A DNA stretch of 40,590 nucleotides from Candidatus Kuenenia stuttgartensis (GCA_945890885.1 CAMDDF010000006.1:1-40590); one strand, 5' to 3'. Shown: positions 4,427 to 15,790, numbered from the stretch's first letter. Program-made: numbers and translations. Notes: generated by a model from the letters alone, not told the origin.

Positions 4427-6859
4427 ATGAAAGAATTGCCAAACGACCCTATACAATTTGCCGCACTTGTTGCCCATCAGCTTAAAGGGCCCATCGCGGC
4501 GGTGAGCAGTCTTTTGCAGACTGTGCTGGGGGAATTGGCTGGCCCAATCACGCCGAAACAGCGGGAAATCCTCGAAAAAGCAATTAGCAGATGCGATGAA
4601 TCTTTGGCGGCGGCGCAAAGGCTGTTGACGATTTCAAAGGCGATTAACAATCCTGAGGCTTTTCAGGGCAGGGCGGATTTAGTTCCGATCATCAGAGAGG
4701 CGATGGAAAGATATGCCCAGCTTTTCAAGAATCAGCATATCGAAATTAAAGCGGATTTTAATTTGCAAAGCGCGATGGCTGTGGGAAATGGTGCGGCATT
4801 GTCCGAGGTTGTCGAGGCATTGTTGAATAACGCGGCGAAATATACGCCGGATCATGGGGTTGTAGAAATAAAGGTCGGCAGCGAGGATGATAAATTTAAG
4901 ATAACCGTTGCGGATTCGGGGATAGGGATACCGCAGGCGGATATGCATAAACTTTTTCAGCCGTTTTACAGGTCGGCTTCTGCGCGGGAGTCGTCGAGGC
5001 CGGGGACGGGGCTTGGGCTTTATTATGTGAAAGCTATCGCGGAGGCTTGCGGCGGAAGTGTTTCTGTCGGCAAGGCGAAAATCGGCGGAGCGGAATTTGT
5101 TATTGAGCTGCCAGCTGCCAAAGATGAAGTTTCGGCAAGCGGCGAATTGATAAAAGGAGAATCTAAAATGCCAGGACTTAAGGTGGTAATAATCGGAGGC
5201 GTCGCGGCAGGGCCGAAAGTGGCTGCGAAGATAATGCGGCTTATGCCGGACGCAGATGTAACGATAGTCGAAAAGGGCAAGCTGCTCTCTTACGCTGGCT
5301 GCGGATTTCCGTATTATATTTCCGGCGTGGTGAAAAATCAGAGCGAGCTTATGAGTTCGTCGGTCGGCGTTGTAAGAGACCCGATATTTTTTCAGAAGGT
5401 TAAAAATATTCACATAATGAATCAGACTGAAGCGATTGAAATTGACAGGAAGGATAAAAAAGTAAAGGTTGTTGATTTGACCAAAAGAGCGGAGTCGTGG
5501 CTTGAATATGATAAGCTTGTTATCGCTACCGGTTCATTGCCGATAATTCCGAAATGTCAGGGGCTGGAGCTTGATAATATATTTACGCTTCACGGGCCAA
5601 GCGATGCCGAGGGCATCAAAGCGGCTGTTGAGCTTACGAAGGCAAAGGATGTTGTAATTGTCGGCGGTGGTTTGATCGGGATTGAAATGACAGAGGCGCT
5701 GACAAAGCGAGGCTGTCGTGTGAGCATCGTCGAAAAGAAAAATCAGATACTGCCGATGCTGGATTTTGAAATGGCAAAGCTGTTCGAAAATCATCTTGAG
5801 TCGCAGGGTGTTAAAGTTTTTACCGATTCGGAGGTGCTGTCGTTTGAAAGCAATGGCGACAAAAAACAAGTGAACTCGGTGGTATGTACCGCAGGCGATG
5901 TTCCTGCTGATATTGTGATTATCGCGGCTGGCATTAAGGCGAATACGCTGCTTGCGGAAAAGGCGGGGCTGGAAATCGGTTCGCTTGGTGCGATAAAAGT
6001 TAATATGAAGATGCAGACAAGCGATGCGGATATTTACGCCGCGGGCGATTGCGTGGAAAGTACGGATATGATTACAAGCAAGCCTTGTTATATTCCGCTG
6101 GGTTCGACGGCGAATAAGCAGGGCAGAATCGTCGCGGTAAATATCTGCGGCGGAAGTGATACTTTTCCAGGTGTGCTTGGTACTGTCGGGTTCAAAGTTT
6201 TTGAATTTTCGATGGGCAGAACCGGCCTATCTGAATCCGGTGCAAAATCGCTGGGTTATGATGCGGTTAGCGTGCTTGCTCCTGGGCCGGATATGGAGCA
6301 TTTTGTGCCGGGTGCTAAATTGCTGATGCTGAAAATAATCGCAGATCGCAAAACCGGCAGGCTGCTTGGTGCTCAGGCAATGGGGCCCGGCGAAGCGATT
6401 AAAAGGATAGATGTCGCGTCGATGGCGATAATGAACAATATGACGGTTTATCAGCTTGCAAATGCGGATTTGTGTTATGCCCCGCCGTTTTCGCCGGTGA
6501 TTGATAATATTATGACCGCGGCCAACATCGCGATAAACAAAATCGAGGGGTATATGGACGGCATCAGCCCGCTTGAGTTTAAGGAAAATCTCGATGCCGG
6601 CGAGGATGTGTATATTCTGGATGTGCGGACTCCGGCTGAATTTGACCGGGTCAGGCTAGCTGGGGCGAATTTGATACCGCTGGCATCGCTGCGAGGCCGA
6701 ATCAATGAAATTCCGAAGGATAGGCCGATAATAACCCTCTGCAATGTTTCTCTTCGCGGATATGAGGCGGCGATTATTCTGAAATCGGCTGGATTTGAGA
6801 ATGTCAAAGTTCTCGATGGCGGGCTTGATATGTACCCTTTTGAAAAGATTTATGTATAA
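4427..6859 (+). CDS. Fusion: histidine kinase (HisKA+HATPase_c), CoA-disulfide reductase/NADH oxidase-like flavoprotein, rhodanese domain
   Basis: H-box AHQLKGPI; HATPase motifs NNAAKYTP, DSGIGIP, GTGLGLYYVK; FAD/NAD motifs VVIIGGVAAGPKVAAKIMR, SYAGCGFPYYISG, VVIVGGGLIGIEMTEAL, IYAAGDC; C-terminal rhodanese ILDVRTPAEFDRVRLAGANLIPL...ITLCNVSLRGYEAA. Confidence 0.88.
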   Translation: MKELPNDPIQFAALVAHQLKGPIAAVSSLLQTVLGELAGPITPKQREILEKAISRCDESLAAAQRLLTISKAINNPEAFQGRADLVPIIREAMERYAQLFKNQHIEIKADFNLQSAMAVGNGAALSEVVEALLNNAAKYTPDHGVVEIKVGSEDDKFKITVADSGIGIPQADMHKLFQPFYRSASARESSRPGTGLGLYYVKAIAEACGGSVSVGKAKIGGAEFVIELPAAKDEVSASGELIKGESKMPGLKVVIIGGVAAGPKVAAKIMRLMPDADVTIVEKGKLLSYAGCGFPYYISGVVKNQSELMSSSVGVVRDPIFFQKVKNIHIMNQTEAIEIDRKDKKVKVVDLTKRAESWLEYDKLVIATGSLPIIPKCQGLELDNIFTLHGPSDAEGIKAAVELTKAKDVVIVGGGLIGIEMTEALTKRGCRVSIVEKKNQILPMLDFEMAKLFENHLESQGVKVFTDSEVLSFESNGDKKQVNSVVCTAGDVPADIVIIAAGIKANTLLAEKAGLEIGSLGAIKVNMKMQTSDADIYAAGDCVESTDMITSKPCYIPLGSTANKQGRIVAVNICGGSDTFPGVLGTVGFKVFEFSMGRTGLSESGAKSLGYDAVSVLAPGPDMEHFVPGAKLLMLKIIADRKTGRLLGAQAMGPGEAIKRIDVASMAIMNNMTVYQLANADLCYAPPFSPVIDNIMTAANIAINKIEGYMDGISPLEFKENLDAGEDVYILDVRTPAEFDRVRLAGANLIPLASLRGRINEIPKDRPIITLCNVSLRGYEAAIILKSAGFENVKVLDGGLDMYPFEKIYV

Positions 6860-10389: not shown

Positions 10390-11130
10390 TTATTCGTCTT
10401 TTTTCTGGCCCGCGACAGCAAGGACAAGGGCATATACCCGCTGGGCACCTGCGTCTTTGAGAATTCTGGAGCATTCATTCAGGGTTGCTCCGGTGGTTTT
10501 GATGTCGTCGACAAGACATATCCTTTTACCGGAAAAATCGTGGTTTTTTCGCAGGGCAAAAGCACCCTCGACATTTTTCTTTCGCTTGGTGGGGGTTAGC
10601 GAAAATTGCGCACGGGTGTTTTTTATGCGTACAAGGTCGGTGTTGATTTTTGATGTTATGCCGTCAAGAACTGAGGCGATGATGTGTGCCTGATTGTAGC
10701 CTCGGATGAAACGTTTTTTCCAATGAAGCGGCACGGGAACGAGATAGTCTATTTCGTTGAAAAATTCGCTGCCCTGCATTGCGGCATTGGTGAGAAAGCG
10801 TAGCTGATTTTTTAGTTGAGTCTGGCCGTTTTTGAATTCGAGAATAATTTTTCTGAAGGCGTTGTCATAGGTTCCGGCTCTTGCGATTGAATCGAAAACG
10901 ATTTCCTCGTTCTGGCATTGGGCGCATCTGCCGTTGATAACTGAATAAGCGGAAGTGTCTCTGCCGCAGCGTCTGCAATAATATCCAGCGGTTGATGAGA
11001 GCAGTTGGCTCCAGCAGTCATCGCAGAGTTTATTGTTTGCTTCGGGTATTCGCTGCGAACAGCTCGAACAAATCGCAGGCCAAAGAAGCTGATTGAATCC
11101 TGAGATTAAAAATTTAACTACTCTCTTCAT
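10390..11130 (-). CDS. comF: ComF-family phosphoribosyltransferase
   Basis: Zn-finger CSSCSQRIPEANNKLCDDCW / YYCRRCGRD; VPVPLHWKKRFIRGYNQAHIIA; PRTase loop ICLVDDIKTTGATLNECSRILKDAGA. Confidence 0.92.
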   Translation of the reverse strand: MKRVVKFLISGFNQLLWPAICSSCSQRIPEANNKLCDDCWSQLLSSTAGYYCRRCGRDTSAYSVINGRCAQCQNEEIVFDSIARAGTYDNAFRKIILEFKNGQTQLKNQLRFLTNAAMQGSEFFNEIDYLVPVPLHWKKRFIRGYNQAHIIASVLDGITSKINTDLVRIKNTRAQFSLTPTKRKKNVEGAFALRKNHDFSGKRICLVDDIKTTGATLNECSRILKDAGAQRVYALVLAVAGQKKDE

Positions 11131-11166: not shown

Positions 11167-12021
11167 CTATTTTAAATCATACGCAGAGTTATCTGGTGAA
11201 AGAAAACCTATTTTAATTTTTGCAGTTTTATTATATGAATCAATATCTGCTTTCACTCGATCAATAGACCCGCCGGTAATAAGATTGTAAGAATCTGTAT
11301 AAAATTCACTTTTAGAGGTCGCATGGCCATCTACCCAGGCAACATTTGTTTGATTATTATGTCTATACCCCTGTGTGCCTGCGGTCTTAAGACTTAATTC
11401 ATTGTCTCCATCCCAAATGAATGGGCTTCTCATCATTTTATTTGCCCCAGCAGAATAGTGTCCGTCTCCAAACAAGGCACATGTGCCGGGACTGCGTACC
11501 TGATTAATCTTGGCAGACATTACAATTTTATAAAAGCTTGGCCATAAAGGATGACTGATGACCTGGCCTGTGTAATTTAGTGTTGTATTTTCGCCCTGAC
11601 CATGCCCGATATAGCTGGTGTTGTAGTTGTAGCCTGTATAAGTTTGAGTGGCTGACCAGTTGTTACTGCCTTTGTATGAGGGGCATTGGTTAACTTTGTC
11701 GATCGTCTCGCCTTGCCAAAGAAGGCCAGGCTCTATCTTATTGCTGACGTTATCAACTACATAATCCCATCCATATGATTTCTTGTCATCAAACCATTGT
11801 GAAATAGGAAAATGTTGGTCATTGCTATTGACATAAGTATTAGCGGCAATTGTCATTTGTCTCATATTTGACAGGCAATAAACTCTTTTTGCCTGTTCTC
11901 TTACCTTGTTTAAAGAAGGCATTAACACTGCAAGCAATGTTGATGTTATAGAAACAACAACCAAAAGCTCAACAAGAGTAAAACCCATTCCATTTTTAGT
12001 ATGTTTATTAATTACAATCAT
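11167..12021 (-). CDS. Type II secretion-type pseudopilin (H-X9-DG family)
   Basis: Prepilin N-terminus MGFTLVELLVVVSITSTLLAVLMPSLNKVREQAKRVYCLSNMRQ; C-terminal NVAWVDGHATSKSEF. Confidence 0.9.
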   Translation of the reverse strand: MIVINKHTKNGMGFTLVELLVVVSITSTLLAVLMPSLNKVREQAKRVYCLSNMRQMTIAANTYVNSNDQHFPISQWFDDKKSYGWDYVVDNVSNKIEPGLLWQGETIDKVNQCPSYKGSNNWSATQTYTGYNYNTSYIGHGQGENTTLNYTGQVISHPLWPSFYKIVMSAKINQVRSPGTCALFGDGHYSAGANKMMRSPFIWDGDNELSLKTAGTQGYRHNNQTNVAWVDGHATSKSEFYTDSYNLITGGSIDRVKADIDSYNKTAKIKIGFLSPDNSAYDLK

Positions 12022-12973
12022 AAGTGCATTTAAGCCAATTTTGCGACATCAACGCAAAGTCTATGAGGTTTACTGAACAATCGTTATTAATATCTCCTAC
12101 CGGATAGGGATGTGTTGGATCCCCGCATGCGGCCACATCCGAAACAGCATCAATCTGCCCACCATAATCATGCCCGTCAAATTTCACATATTGAATCCAG
12201 CGATAACCACTGTCTGAATCAATCGCCAATGAATCATACCCCGCCAAATTTTCAAGATCATAACTTGTTCCACCGGCAGAACCATCATATAAATTGATTC
12301 CATAAGCTACTGAATGTGAAGCAAAATCAGACACCGTTAAATTTGGGTCCAATGGTCTTGTAAAATCCATTTCTTCATCGCTCCATCCGTTTTCCGTAGC
12401 GCTATAAAGTTCTTGGTCCCACCGATAAGCCTGTGTAGGAAATAAATAATCAGAAAATGGCCCTGAGTCAAAAGCATACCATGTCTGGCCATCCTGACTA
12501 ACAGAAACCTTTATTTCCCCAGCTGAAGATGACTTCAAATCACTTATGGTAAATTGGCCCATATTTGCATTGTCATCAATATAGACACCGCTGCCTGTAA
12601 AAAAGGAATTTCCAAATACAATAAAATCTTTACCATAAAGATTTCCCGGATAATCAACAACCTTATGATCAAATTTCACAACAATGTATTCACCGGGATT
12701 AATTGTCGTTATGACTTTTTTATTTTCCAAATCAATATTGTATGCTGCTTCTACAAGTTTAACCCTAAAGTTATTCAAGCCCCATGCCCCAGGCATATTT
12801 TTGCAATTGGTTGCAGGTTTACCCAAAACAGAACATGGGTCATTATATGGCGCAGATCCAAAATCTCCATTACAACTAATTAGTTCTATAGCGAAGTCGC
12901 TATACTCTTGTTCTGCAAAAGAATTTGCCGAAAAAAGTATGATTAATATCAATAATAAATTTAATGTTTTCAT
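12008..12973 (-). CDS. Secreted surface protein with dockerin-like C-terminal tail
   Basis: Signal peptide MKTLNLLLILIILFSANSFA; GKDFIVFGNSFF...EIKVSVSQDGQTWYAF; C-terminal VGDINNDCSVNLIDFALMSQNWLKC; end overlaps the pseudopilin start by 14 nt. Confidence 0.75.
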   Translation of the reverse strand: MKTLNLLLILIILFSANSFAEQEYSDFAIELISCNGDFGSAPYNDPCSVLGKPATNCKNMPGAWGLNNFRVKLVEAAYNIDLENKKVITTINPGEYIVVKFDHKVVDYPGNLYGKDFIVFGNSFFTGSGVYIDDNANMGQFTISDLKSSSAGEIKVSVSQDGQTWYAFDSGPFSDYLFPTQAYRWDQELYSATENGWSDEEMDFTRPLDPNLTVSDFASHSVAYGINLYDGSAGGTSYDLENLAGYDSLAIDSDSGYRWIQYVKFDGHDYGGQIDAVSDVAACGDPTHPYPVGDINNDCSVNLIDFALMSQNWLKCTYDCN

Positions 12974-13033
12974 GACTACCTTTTAAAAATAGATGCTCCC
13001 AGATGATTACCCGGGAGCATTTGAAAGCATGAT

Positions 13034-13555
13034 TTATTTACGTTTTCGCAGGAAAAATCCACCAAGCCCTAAAAACGCAACCGTTAAAGGCTCAGGAGTA
13101 GAGAAAACAGTATATTCCCATGTGTCCCAATCGCCGTCAGCAAGAATTCTATCGGAAGCTCCACTTCCTGAATATGCCCATGTTTTTCCATCTGTGGATG
13201 AATAATAAGCCCAGTAGCTTTGAATACCGCCGGTGACCCACTGAGATGAAATGTCCTGATCATCGTAAGCAATTCGGCCAATCATGCCCCATTGGTCATA
13301 GCCGTATTCAAATGTAGTTTCATTGACAAGTGCATCGAGCATGTCAATTCCTTTAACATTCTGTGCAGCATCAAATTTATAGCCGAAGAAATATTCGTCG
13401 CCGGAAACTGACAGGTCAAAGTCAACCACTACATAAGCAGTATCGTTGCCGTTGCCTGCCCATTGAGAGATTGTTATATCTTCCAGAACATATGCGTTTG
13501 AAACTGCAACTGTTACTAAAACTACTGCCAAACTAACTAAACTTTTAAACTTCAT
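13034..13555 (-). CDS. PEP-CTERM sorting-domain secreted protein
   Basis: Signal peptide; C-terminal TPEPLTVAFLGLGGFFLRKRK; body contains YWAYYSSTDGKTWAYSGSGASDRILADGDWDTWEYT. Confidence 0.85.
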   Translation of the reverse strand: MKFKSLVSLAVVLVTVAVSNAYVLEDITISQWAGNGNDTAYVVVDFDLSVSGDEYFFGYKFDAAQNVKGIDMLDALVNETTFEYGYDQWGMIGRIAYDDQDISSQWVTGGIQSYWAYYSSTDGKTWAYSGSGASDRILADGDWDTWEYTVFSTPEPLTVAFLGLGGFFLRKRK

Positions 13556-13763
13556 TTCTACTTCTCCATTTTTGTTGTTTTTAAATTTGTTTTTCCTTTT
13601 TCGGCTTTATCGCCGCGGCCGAGGGCAAATCAGTCTCAGCCGCGACGAATTACTAATTTTTATAAAGCCTAACTACAGTGAAAGTGTGTGTGTCAAAAAT
13701 CAATAAGCTATTTCGATATTTCATACTCCTTCATTTCAGGCCCGTTTCGCGCAGGTGGTTAAT

Positions 13764-13805
13764 AAAATAAAAAAAGCCGCCATCCTCGCGAAGAGAATGA
13801 CGGCT
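13764..13805 (-). terminator. Intrinsic terminator, likely the riboswitch expression platform
   Basis: Minus strand AGCCGTCATTCTC TTCGC GAGGATGGCGGCT TTTTTTAT, between riboswitch and PEP-CTERM gene. Confidence 0.85.
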
Positions 13806-13889
13806 CTAAAAATCTTCTATACCCACACCTGACCCCAAAAAAAGAGAAGGTGCGCATAAAAAATGAGCTATGTCCTTTACGCGAGAACA

Positions 13890-14075
13890 GCACAAATGCT
13901 TATCAATCACAGGCAGGTTTTCTGACTCACATCCTACCAGAAGAAAGCCTTCCCGTTCGTATCGAACAGTGGCACAAAAATCCTCTGGATTCTCAGCGTT
14001 GGCTGAGTCGGACGCTCACAGCGGCGCGACCGTCGCGGAATTTAACCGCGTTCCCATTTACTGTATTTCTTCACA
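13890..14075 (-). ncRNA. Cobalamin (AdoCbl-type) riboswitch
   Basis: Minus strand contains the conserved core: GGGAACGCGGUUAAAUUCCGCGACGGUCGCGCCGCUGUGAGC ... GCCACUG ... CGGGAAGGC ... AGGAUGUGAGUCAGAAAACCUGCC. Confidence 0.93.
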
Positions 14076-14118
14076 GAAACCTGTAATTAAAAAATTCAAT
14101 TATCAAAGAACGTATCGG

Positions 14119-14147
14119 ATATTAGCTTATCGGGCAGGATTTGTCAA
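14119..14147 (-). promoter_or_regulatory. Sigma70-like promoter for the riboswitch transcript
   Basis: Minus strand TTGACA-N17-TAATAT between the carB stop and the riboswitch. Confidence 0.75.
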
Positions 14148-14194: not shown

Positions 14195-15790
14195 TTACTT
14201 TCCTATCTCAGCGGCGTATTCCTGGATGGTTTTAACCGTAAACGAATGATTCTTGAGCCTGTCGATTGCGTGTGCGACAGCGACAGCACCGGGAACAGTT
14301 GTTACGATAGGAATATTTCTTGCCCAGGCGGTAGAACGAATTTTGACCTCATCCTTTCGAGGATTTTTGCCGCTCGGGGTGTTTATTATCAGATGGATTT
14401 CTTCATTGATTATCATATCGGCGACATTGGGCTGGCCGTGAGTAATCTTTTTGAGGAGAATATTTTTTATACCGGCATCGTCAAGCCACTTGCTTGTGCC
14501 GAATGTTGCGTAAATTGTAAAACCAAGCTCGGAAAGTTTCTTTGCGACTTTAACCATTGCCAGCGTTTTGTTTGCGGAACTTATGCTGATAAAGACATTG
14601 CCTTCCTTGGGAAGTTTTTGGCCTGCGCCGAGCTGGGCTTTTGCAAATGCAACGCCGAAGTCGTCGGAGATGCCCATAACTTCGCCGGTGCTTTTCATTT
14701 CCGGGCTAAGCTGGGTATCGATGCCTTCAAATCTTGCAAATGGAAAGACAGCTTCTTTGACAGAGATATGCTTTGGAATAATTTCTTCGGTATAGTTAAG
14801 CTCTTTCAGCGTTTTTCCAAGAATCACCTGCGTTGCGACTTTTGCAAGGCTCCTGCCGATGGCTTTACTTACAAACGGCACGGTTCGTGATGCTCTGGGG
14901 TTTACCTCAAGGATGTAAACTTCGCCAAGGCGTACGGCAAACTGGATATTGAGCAGGCCCTTGACCTTCAGAGCAAACGCAATCCGCTTTGTTTGTTCGC
15001 GAATCTGGTTGGTGATTTTTTTATCGAGTACCTGGGTTGGTATAACACAAGCGGAATCGCCGGAATGAACGCCCGCTTCTTCGATGTGTTCCATTACCGC
15101 GCCGATAACGCAGTCTGTTCCGTCGCAGATAGCATCAACGTCAACTTCGACAGCGTCTTCGAGGAATTTGTCAATGAGTACCGGCCTTTCAGGTGAGACG
15201 AATACAGCCTTGGTCATATATTCTTCAAGCTCTTCGTCGCTATATACAATTTCCATTGCTCTGCCGCCAAGTACATAGCTTGGCCTGACGAGAACGGGGT
15301 AGCCGATACGAGTTGCGATTTTTTGTACGGTTGGGTAATCATAGCCTGTATCGTTGTCTGGCTGTTTGATATTGAGTTTGGTGATTAGCTGTTTGAAGCG
15401 TTCGCGGTCTTCGGCGATGTCGATGGAATCGCTGCTTGTGCCGAGCAGTTTAACGCCAGCTTTTTCGAGAGATACCGAAAGATTCAGCGGGGTTTGGCCG
15501 CCGAACTGGACGATGGTGCCTATCGGATTTTCAACTTCGATGATATTTAGTACATCTTCGGAGGTCATCGGCTCAAAATAAAGCCTTGTCGAGATGTCGT
15601 AGTCAGTGCTGACGGTTTCCGGATTGCAATTGACCATTATCGCTTCGTAGCCCATTTCTTTGGCCGCAAGAGCAGCGTGGACGCAGCAATAGTCAAATTC
15701 GATGCCTTGGCCGATGCGGTTTGGGCCGCCGCCGAGGATTACAACCCTGCCTTTGGATTCCTTTTTTGTGTTATCTTTGTCTGATGCCAT
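14195..15790 (-). CDS. carB: Carbamoyl-phosphate synthase large chain, C-terminal half (second ATP-grasp + MGS domain), stand-alone
   Basis: VVILGGGPNRIGQGIEFDYCCVHAALAAKEMGYEAIMVNCNPETVSTDYD; YVLGGRAMEIVY; EVNPRASRTVPFVSKAIG; MGS domain GFTIYATFGTSKWLDDAGI...INTPSGKNPRKDEVKIR. Confidence 0.93.
   Translation of the reverse strand: MASDKDNTKKESKGRVVILGGGPNRIGQGIEFDYCCVHAALAAKEMGYEAIMVNCNPETVSTDYDISTRLYFEPMTSEDVLNIIEVENPIGTIVQFGGQTPLNLSVSLEKAGVKLLGTSSDSIDIAEDRERFKQLITKLNIKQPDNDTGYDYPTVQKIATRIGYPVLVRPSYVLGGRAMEIVYSDEELEEYMTKAVFVSPERPVLIDKFLEDAVEVDVDAICDGTDCVIGAVMEHIEEAGVHSGDSACVIPTQVLDKKITNQIREQTKRIAFALKVKGLLNIQFAVRLGEVYILEVNPRASRTVPFVSKAIGRSLAKVATQVILGKTLKELNYTEEIIPKHISVKEAVFPFARFEGIDTQLSPEMKSTGEVMGISDDFGVAFAKAQLGAGQKLPKEGNVFISISSANKTLAMVKVAKKLSELGFTIYATFGTSKWLDDAGIKNILLKKITHGQPNVADMIINEEIHLIINTPSGKNPRKDEVKIRSTAWARNIPIVTTVPGAVAVAHAIDRLKNHSFTVKTIQEYAAEIGK

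Follow-up and report, generated by a model that had tools for sequence, protein, structure and literature searches.

A minus-strand operon in the genome of an uncultured Planctomycetota bacterium (2.14 Mb, 95.6% complete) places three genes behind a cobalamin riboswitch; it spans positions 11,167 to 14,147 of the window, the whole 40,590-nucleotide stretch of DNA analyzed here (GCA_945890885.1, CAMDDF010000006.1:1-40590). The genes, termed P1, P2 and P3, encode a PEP-CTERM protein, a secreted β-rich protein with a dockerin-like tail and a pseudopilin, and the trio is probably a cobalamin-repressed operon for an extracytoplasmic cobamide-capture module that feeds BtuFCD. Capture of cobalamin by these envelope proteins is well supported computationally because btu and cob genes share the same run in relatives and because blind fold comparisons return B12-binding proteins. 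The original prediction had the proteins capturing or relaying cobalamin at the cell surface, perhaps via a pseudopilus-like assembly; gene co-location and the predicted folds of P1 and P2 support the former, whereas the pseudopilus is still conjectural. The features of the operon are the following.

14119..14147, minus strand: sigma-70-like promoter TTGACA-N17-TAATAT (exact pattern match, a match to consensus only)
13895..14099, minus strand: cobalamin riboswitch aptamer RF00174 (cmscan 92.4 bits, E 8e-22, full model 1-189)
13774..13806, minus strand: intrinsic terminator stem-loop and T run, the likely expression platform (14-bp stem, -22.2 kcal/mol)
13034..13555, minus strand: P1, secreted PEP-CTERM protein with a predicted fold like the transcobalamin β domain (AlphaFold2 model, mean predicted local distance difference test (pLDDT) 82; family alignment A2)
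13037..13102, minus strand: putative P1 PEP-CTERM sorting signal, residues 152-173 (PF07589, 16.7 bits, sub-threshold)
12008..12973, minus strand: P2, secreted β-rich protein, BtuH/BtuG1-like by predicted fold (AlphaFold2 model, pLDDT 88.9; alignments A1 and A4)
12032..12097, minus strand: P2 dockerin-like C-terminal tail, residues 293-314 (PF00404, 18.5 bits, sub-threshold)
11167..12021, minus strand: P3, dedicated pseudopilin of the DUF1559/H-X9-DG type (PF07596 over its cut-off; alignment A3)
11923..11985, minus strand: P3 type IV prepilin N-terminal signal, residues 13-33 (PF07963, 18.3 bits; GFTLVELL)
11326..11361, minus strand: P3 H-X9-DG motif HNNQTNVAWVDG, residues 221-232 (exact in translation; TIGR04294, 17.6 bits against a cut-off of 19)

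The association between the riboswitch and the trio is beyond chance. In a class-wide search of 298 genomes, the class being taken as Phycisphaerae, P2 homologues occur in 151 genomes (some through the dockerin tail alone) and RF00174 in 274; in all 35 of the same-contig riboswitch-P2 pairs listed, host included, riboswitch and P2 share a strand, with the riboswitch 247 to 2279 nucleotides upstream of the match. The 20 best P2 matches were picked irrespective of riboswitch presence, and 17 of them have one, while the remaining three start at most 80 nucleotides from a contig end. When species-genome contigs were scanned with the P2 profile, matches came from Verrucomicrobiota, Kiritimatiellae, Armatimonadota, Desulfobacterota and others, and a cobalamin riboswitch is present at 19 of the 24 loci then checked for one, two of these riboswitches being of the AdoCbl-II class. 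Both of the latter are in Armatimonadota (L147:6069-6144 and L148:6063-6138), where AdoCbl-II (RF01689) replaces RF00174 before a P3-P2 pair; two riboswitch classes thus control the same genes. The synteny comparison that the original prediction had proposed therefore reveals a linkage conserved far outside the genus, in several phyla. P1-P2-P3 is the gene order in most genomes of the same taxonomic order, with P3 directly after P2 and often overlapping it; elsewhere the order is P3-P2-P1 (L140, L132) or P2-P3-P1 (L171), and several lineages carry a P1P2 fusion.

The anatomy of the host leader resembles that of a terminator-controlled riboswitch. The near-consensus promoter that had been proposed is confirmed exactly at 14147-14119, and the proposed cobalamin riboswitch is a full-length RF00174 aptamer scoring far over the gathering threshold of 31.5 bits; it is the sole RF00174 match in the genome. 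A terminator was also correctly foreseen, with slightly different ends (13764..13805 in the original prediction, 13806-13774 here): its stem has zero mismatches, closes a loop of five and is followed by the T run, the energy given above being that of the element folded alone. Of 32 homologous leaders, 27 have an intrinsic terminator within 400 nucleotides after the aptamer, where mononucleotide shuffles would give 0.45. By analogy, this conserved anatomy suggests ligand-dependent switching through the terminator.

The genes that accompany the trio in relatives point to B12. The closest relative found (L107, P2 56% identical) has the arrangement riboswitch-P1-P2-P3-cobT-cobS-cobC-btuF-btuD, and inspection of its sequence by eye adds, after btuD, open reading frames for a BtuC-like (333 residues), a CobO-like (184 residues) and a CobU-like protein (162 residues). 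A second locus reads riboswitch-P1-P2-P3-btuF-btuD-btuC (L081), and in Verrucomicrobiota (L128) the riboswitch precedes a P1P2 fusion, P3, btuF and btuD and, further along, cbiR-cobU-cobT-cobS. Genes for PQQ_2 β-propellers flank or are fused to P2 at several other loci, and DUF4465 genes are present at two Desulfobacterota loci (L121 and L136). Within the window, none of the genes adjoining the host operon was recognized as serving B12 transport or synthesis and no BtuB-BtuFCD set is encoded with it; the original prediction was right to place no BtuB, BtuFCD, ECF or cobalamin synthesis gene there, the neighbors being the C-terminal half of carB upstream and comF downstream.

P1 (173 residues) ends in a PEP-CTERM-like tail whose own motif scores below the cut-off of 20.7 bits; the PEP-CTERM family is matched by 14 of 18 P1-family members at E<=1 and the host genome holds exosortase matches, so that the gene proposed at 13034-13555 as a PEP-CTERM protein is rightly placed. 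The models of P1 and P2 were compared with known structures blind. Among 350,542 PDB chains, ranks 1-15, 17 and 19 for P1 are transcobalamin, intrinsic factor or haptocorrin, and ranks 16 and 18 are the Ruminococcus protein 3u7z, which we take to be a DUF4430 domain; E-values range from 1.9e-4 to 2e-2, and the template-modeling score (TM-score; TMt) is 0.59 against the isolated β domain. The model has the β-grasp order strand-strand-helix-extra hairpin-strands and thus, by prediction, a transcobalamin-like SLBB fold. An assignment of P1 to DUF4430 or DUF4465 by sequence was ruled out, since neither matches; P1 is termed transcobalamin-like by fold, and not filed as DUF4430, because the DUF4430 sequence match is absent. 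A weak match to the SCO2322 family reaches 19.8 bits against a cut-off of 85. Six columns are invariant in A2.

P2 (321 residues) carries at its C-terminal end the dockerin-like tail, itself below the cut-off of 22.9 bits; 14 of 27 P2-family members match the dockerin family at E<=1, and the original description of a secreted protein with such a tail at 12008-12973 holds. The single PDB fold match of its model at E<=1e-3 is BtuG1 of Bacteroides thetaiotaomicron (8blw_B, E 2.4e-5), with a TM-score of 0.30 by query length, the aligned part of BtuG1 not being given by the comparison. P2 likely shares a fold with BtuG1, and the predicted fold together with analogous fusions suggests a tie to BtuH; homology to BtuH is unproven, because TM-scores are low and sequence profiles blank. 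The profiles were built from 27 sequences (A1) and from 40 sequences of several phyla (A4). A sequence-level tie between P2 and BtuH was not borne out, PDB searches with both having come back empty, and a match of P2 to cloacin immunity proteins (E 0.015) was set aside as chance. A1 has eight invariant columns.

P3 (284 residues) overlaps P2 by 14 nucleotides (12008-12021), and its description as a pseudopilin at 11167-12021 is borne out by the prepilin signal, by PF07596 (DUF1559, 23.9 bits against a cut-off of 23.3) and by the exact H-X9-DG motif. In the PDB, the P3 family profile matched only pilin N-terminal helices. Of the trio, P3 shows the strongest conservation, with 39 invariant columns over the 25 divergent orthologous sequences of A3, and its orthologue is single-copy in the host genome, scoring 347 bits where the next pilin reaches 85. 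It is clearly a dedicated pseudopilin and part of the system.

The host encodes machinery with which such proteins could work: its genome has seven secretin matches, two exosortase matches, 14 other pilin-like proteins beside P3 and proteins with B12-binding domains, two of them over the cut-off. No TonB receptor and no ECF_trnsprt component (PF12822) were found in it. TonB receptors were detected in 98 of the 230 near-complete genomes of the class, and the trio does occur in genomes without one: 33 of the 71 near-complete P2-bearing genomes lack a detected receptor, including L081 with its P1-P2-P3-btuFDC arrangement. The stronger claim that the operon replaces BtuB was dropped: TonB receptors are no rarer among P2-bearing genomes, 44 of 82 of which encode one, and the imbalance runs the opposite way (Fisher p 0.018).

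These elements can be assembled into a working scheme. At high intracellular cobalamin, the riboswitch would let the intrinsic terminator stop transcription and, at low cobalamin, P1, P2 and P3 would be made, as the leader anatomy and known cobalamin riboswitches suggest. P1 would be processed by an exosortase and P3 by a prepilin peptidase, judging from what is known of such signals. Both P1, transcobalamin-β-domain-like and held by its PEP-CTERM anchor, and P2, BtuH-like with a dockerin or PEP-CTERM tail, are predicted from their models to bind cobamides in the envelope. P3 would work with the secretin and pilin machinery, either exporting P1 and P2 and displaying them or forming a pseudopilus that bears them. 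Captured B12 would then pass to BtuF-BtuCD, a hand-over suggested by the co-location observed in some relatives.

Several observations weigh against this capture scheme. Two loci (L117 and L160) have no riboswitch despite room for one upstream, the Desulfobacterota loci inspected have P1 and P2 without P3, and no antiterminator pairing of at least seven bases was found for the 5' arm of the host terminator. The TM-scores of P1 and P2 are both modest. The P1 sequence profile matched no B12 protein in the PDB, none of the 18 P1-family members matches DUF4430 (PF14478) at E<=1, and P1 and its family are unmatched by DUF4465 (PF14717); likewise, the P2 profiles A1 and A4 retrieved from the PDB no BtuH or BtuG chain at E<=10 and the P2 family is unmatched by DUF4465 and DUF4430. 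Finally, the inner-membrane step of B12 transport is unseen in the host because no FecCD (BtuC-family) permease was detected in its genome. FecCD is present in 229 of 230 near-complete genomes of the class and the absence in the host may be an assembly gap; loss of BtuC is not claimed, because the host is the sole exception.

Capture of B12 by P1 and P2 allows two sub-versions that differ in the role of P3. In one, P3 does no more than serve a type II secretion system as a substrate-specific minor pseudopilin for exporting or sorting P1 and P2, a tentative reading whose chances fall slightly short of even: the DUF1559-type sequence with H-X9-DG, the position directly after P2 with frequent overlap, and the seven secretin matches and 14 other pilin-like proteins of the host fit such a helper, while the 39 invariant columns, as against eight in P2 and six in P1, exceed what is expected of an export helper and a dockerin-like neighbor was seen at only one of four other host pilin genes checked. 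In the other, P3 polymerizes into or caps a secretin-gated filament that bears P1 and P2, and B12 reaches BtuF through the outer membrane with no need for BtuB or TonB; such a B12-carrying pseudopilus is the less likely of the two and, on balance, doubtful.

Two further explanations dispense with capture altogether. The operon could belong to a surface or biofilm program that is merely B12-responsive, serving adhesion or attachment to B12 producers through proteins that do not bind B12. Pseudopilins, dockerins and PEP-CTERM proteins are typical of surface structures, and c-di-GMP-I and cobalamin riboswitches are paired at two Desulfobacterota loci, with c-di-GMP-I at two more; however, the blind folds of both P1 and P2 return B12-binding proteins, btuF/btuD and cobT/cobS/cobU sit in the same run at L107, L081 or L128, and DUF4465 is present in related loci, all of which makes such a program improbable. 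The trio could also be downstream passengers of a riboswitch kept mainly for something else, such as a lost btu operon, with an inherited linkage; the host operon is indeed followed by comF and by no B12 transporter. Since the linkage spans at least four phyla with reordered genes, fusions and a second riboswitch class, passive inheritance is no explanation, and this possibility is regarded as very remote. Cobamide capture by P1 and P2 is thus the reading retained here.

The leaders of some homologous loci are of interest in their own right. In two Desulfobacterota loci (L121:3240-4194 and L122:4092-4508), a c-di-GMP-I riboswitch lies close to the cobalamin riboswitch, upstream of P1/P2 homologues, and this riboswitch class is also found in L136 and L124; it would be unusual for one leader to respond to vitamin status as well as to a surface-lifestyle signal. 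Two to three cobalamin riboswitch matches per locus lie upstream of P1/P2/P3 genes in L121:2079-3935 and L127:492-982. At L119, on a contig titled Thermacetogenium sp. UBA4966, a P2 homologue shares the locus with two cobalamin riboswitches and with a CWB2 cell-wall protein that weakly matches DUF4430, possibly a version of the system for cells without an outer membrane.

Among the neighboring genes of the host, comF (window 10390-11130, minus strand) follows the operon, and a comF-like gene is similarly found in many genomes of the same order (L063, L078, L090); the surroundings of the operon are thus conserved. On the other side, the C-terminal half of the large subunit of carbamoyl phosphate synthase (profile positions 543-1057) has an open reading frame of its own (14195-15790, minus strand); carB appears split because the N-terminal half is not adjacent. 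Further away, 4427-6859 (plus strand) encodes an unusual 810-residue fusion of a histidine-kinase-type ATPase, a pyridine nucleotide-disulfide oxidoreductase and a rhodanese.

What is understood of cobamide acquisition comes mostly from Enterobacteria and Bacteroides, via BtuB. The regulon defined here by its riboswitch spans Planctomycetota, Verrucomicrobiota, Kiritimatiellae, Armatimonadota and Desulfobacterota and brings together a putative bacterial counterpart of the animal transcobalamin β domain, a protein that is BtuH-like by its model and, outside Desulfobacterota, a dedicated pseudopilin. It proposes a role in B12 biology for proteins of which Pfam and NCBIfam recognize the sorting tails alone, and it makes outer-membrane B12 entry in such bacteria directly testable, as near-complete genomes without a detected TonB receptor carry it. 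A B12-carrying pseudopilus, if real, would be a TonB-independent B12 route over the outer membrane in several phyla. Searches of the open-access literature turned up no B12 system in which a cobalamin riboswitch is described together with pilin or PEP-CTERM genes, and none that combines a dedicated pseudopilin, across several phyla, with a BtuH-like protein and a PEP-CTERM protein resembling transcobalamin.

The transcobalamin-like clade of SLBB β-grasp domains was delineated in 2007, and the portion of that paper drawn upon here predicts B12 scavenging for bacterial members, planctomycetes included (PMC1796856). P1 resembles this clade in its predicted strand order and in its best PDB matches, transcobalamin, intrinsic factor and haptocorrin; unlike the clade as presented in that portion, it is associated with a riboswitch and a pseudopilin. 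In contrast to the SLBB clade and DUF4430, P1 has no DUF4430 sequence match and no alpha/alpha toroid, and it carries a PEP-CTERM anchor.

Mucisphaera calidilacus is a planctomycete of the Phycisphaerae. DUF4465 and BtuJ proteins are secreted B12 binders of riboswitch loci, and the member from M. calidilacus was shown to bind B12 (PMC13398666). DUF4465 genes sit in the two related Desulfobacterota loci mentioned above, whereas neither P1 nor P2 matches DUF4465. P3, for its part, shares the prepilin signal, DUF1559 and H-X9-DG with minor pseudopilins of type II secretion and type IV pili; in contrast to them, it forms one orthologue group with a long conserved C-terminal part (GFLSxDN) and is controlled by a cobalamin riboswitch.

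The nearest functional parallel is provided by the cobamide uptake loci of Bacteroides thetaiotaomicron, with their surface lipoproteins BtuB, BtuG, BtuH, BtuJ and BtuK (PMC8941943, PMC10404256, PMC12751083). The trio shares with them cobalamin-riboswitch control and several extracytoplasmic proteins per operon, whose cobamide binding is for the trio predicted from models. The best PDB fold match of P2 is BtuG1, whose C-terminal part is a BtuH domain, and at several loci P2 lies beside or is fused to β-propellers, as BtuH is in BT_1490 (PMC8941943). The trio differs in having PEP-CTERM or dockerin tails in place of lipoprotein signals, in having a pseudopilin and no BtuB in the operon, in occurring in many genomes without a detected TonB receptor, and in including a P1-type protein, absent among the Bacteroides proteins of the papers compared. 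Riboswitch-controlled B12-binding proteins are thus already known from Bacteroides; a B12-carrying pseudopilus would be categorically new.

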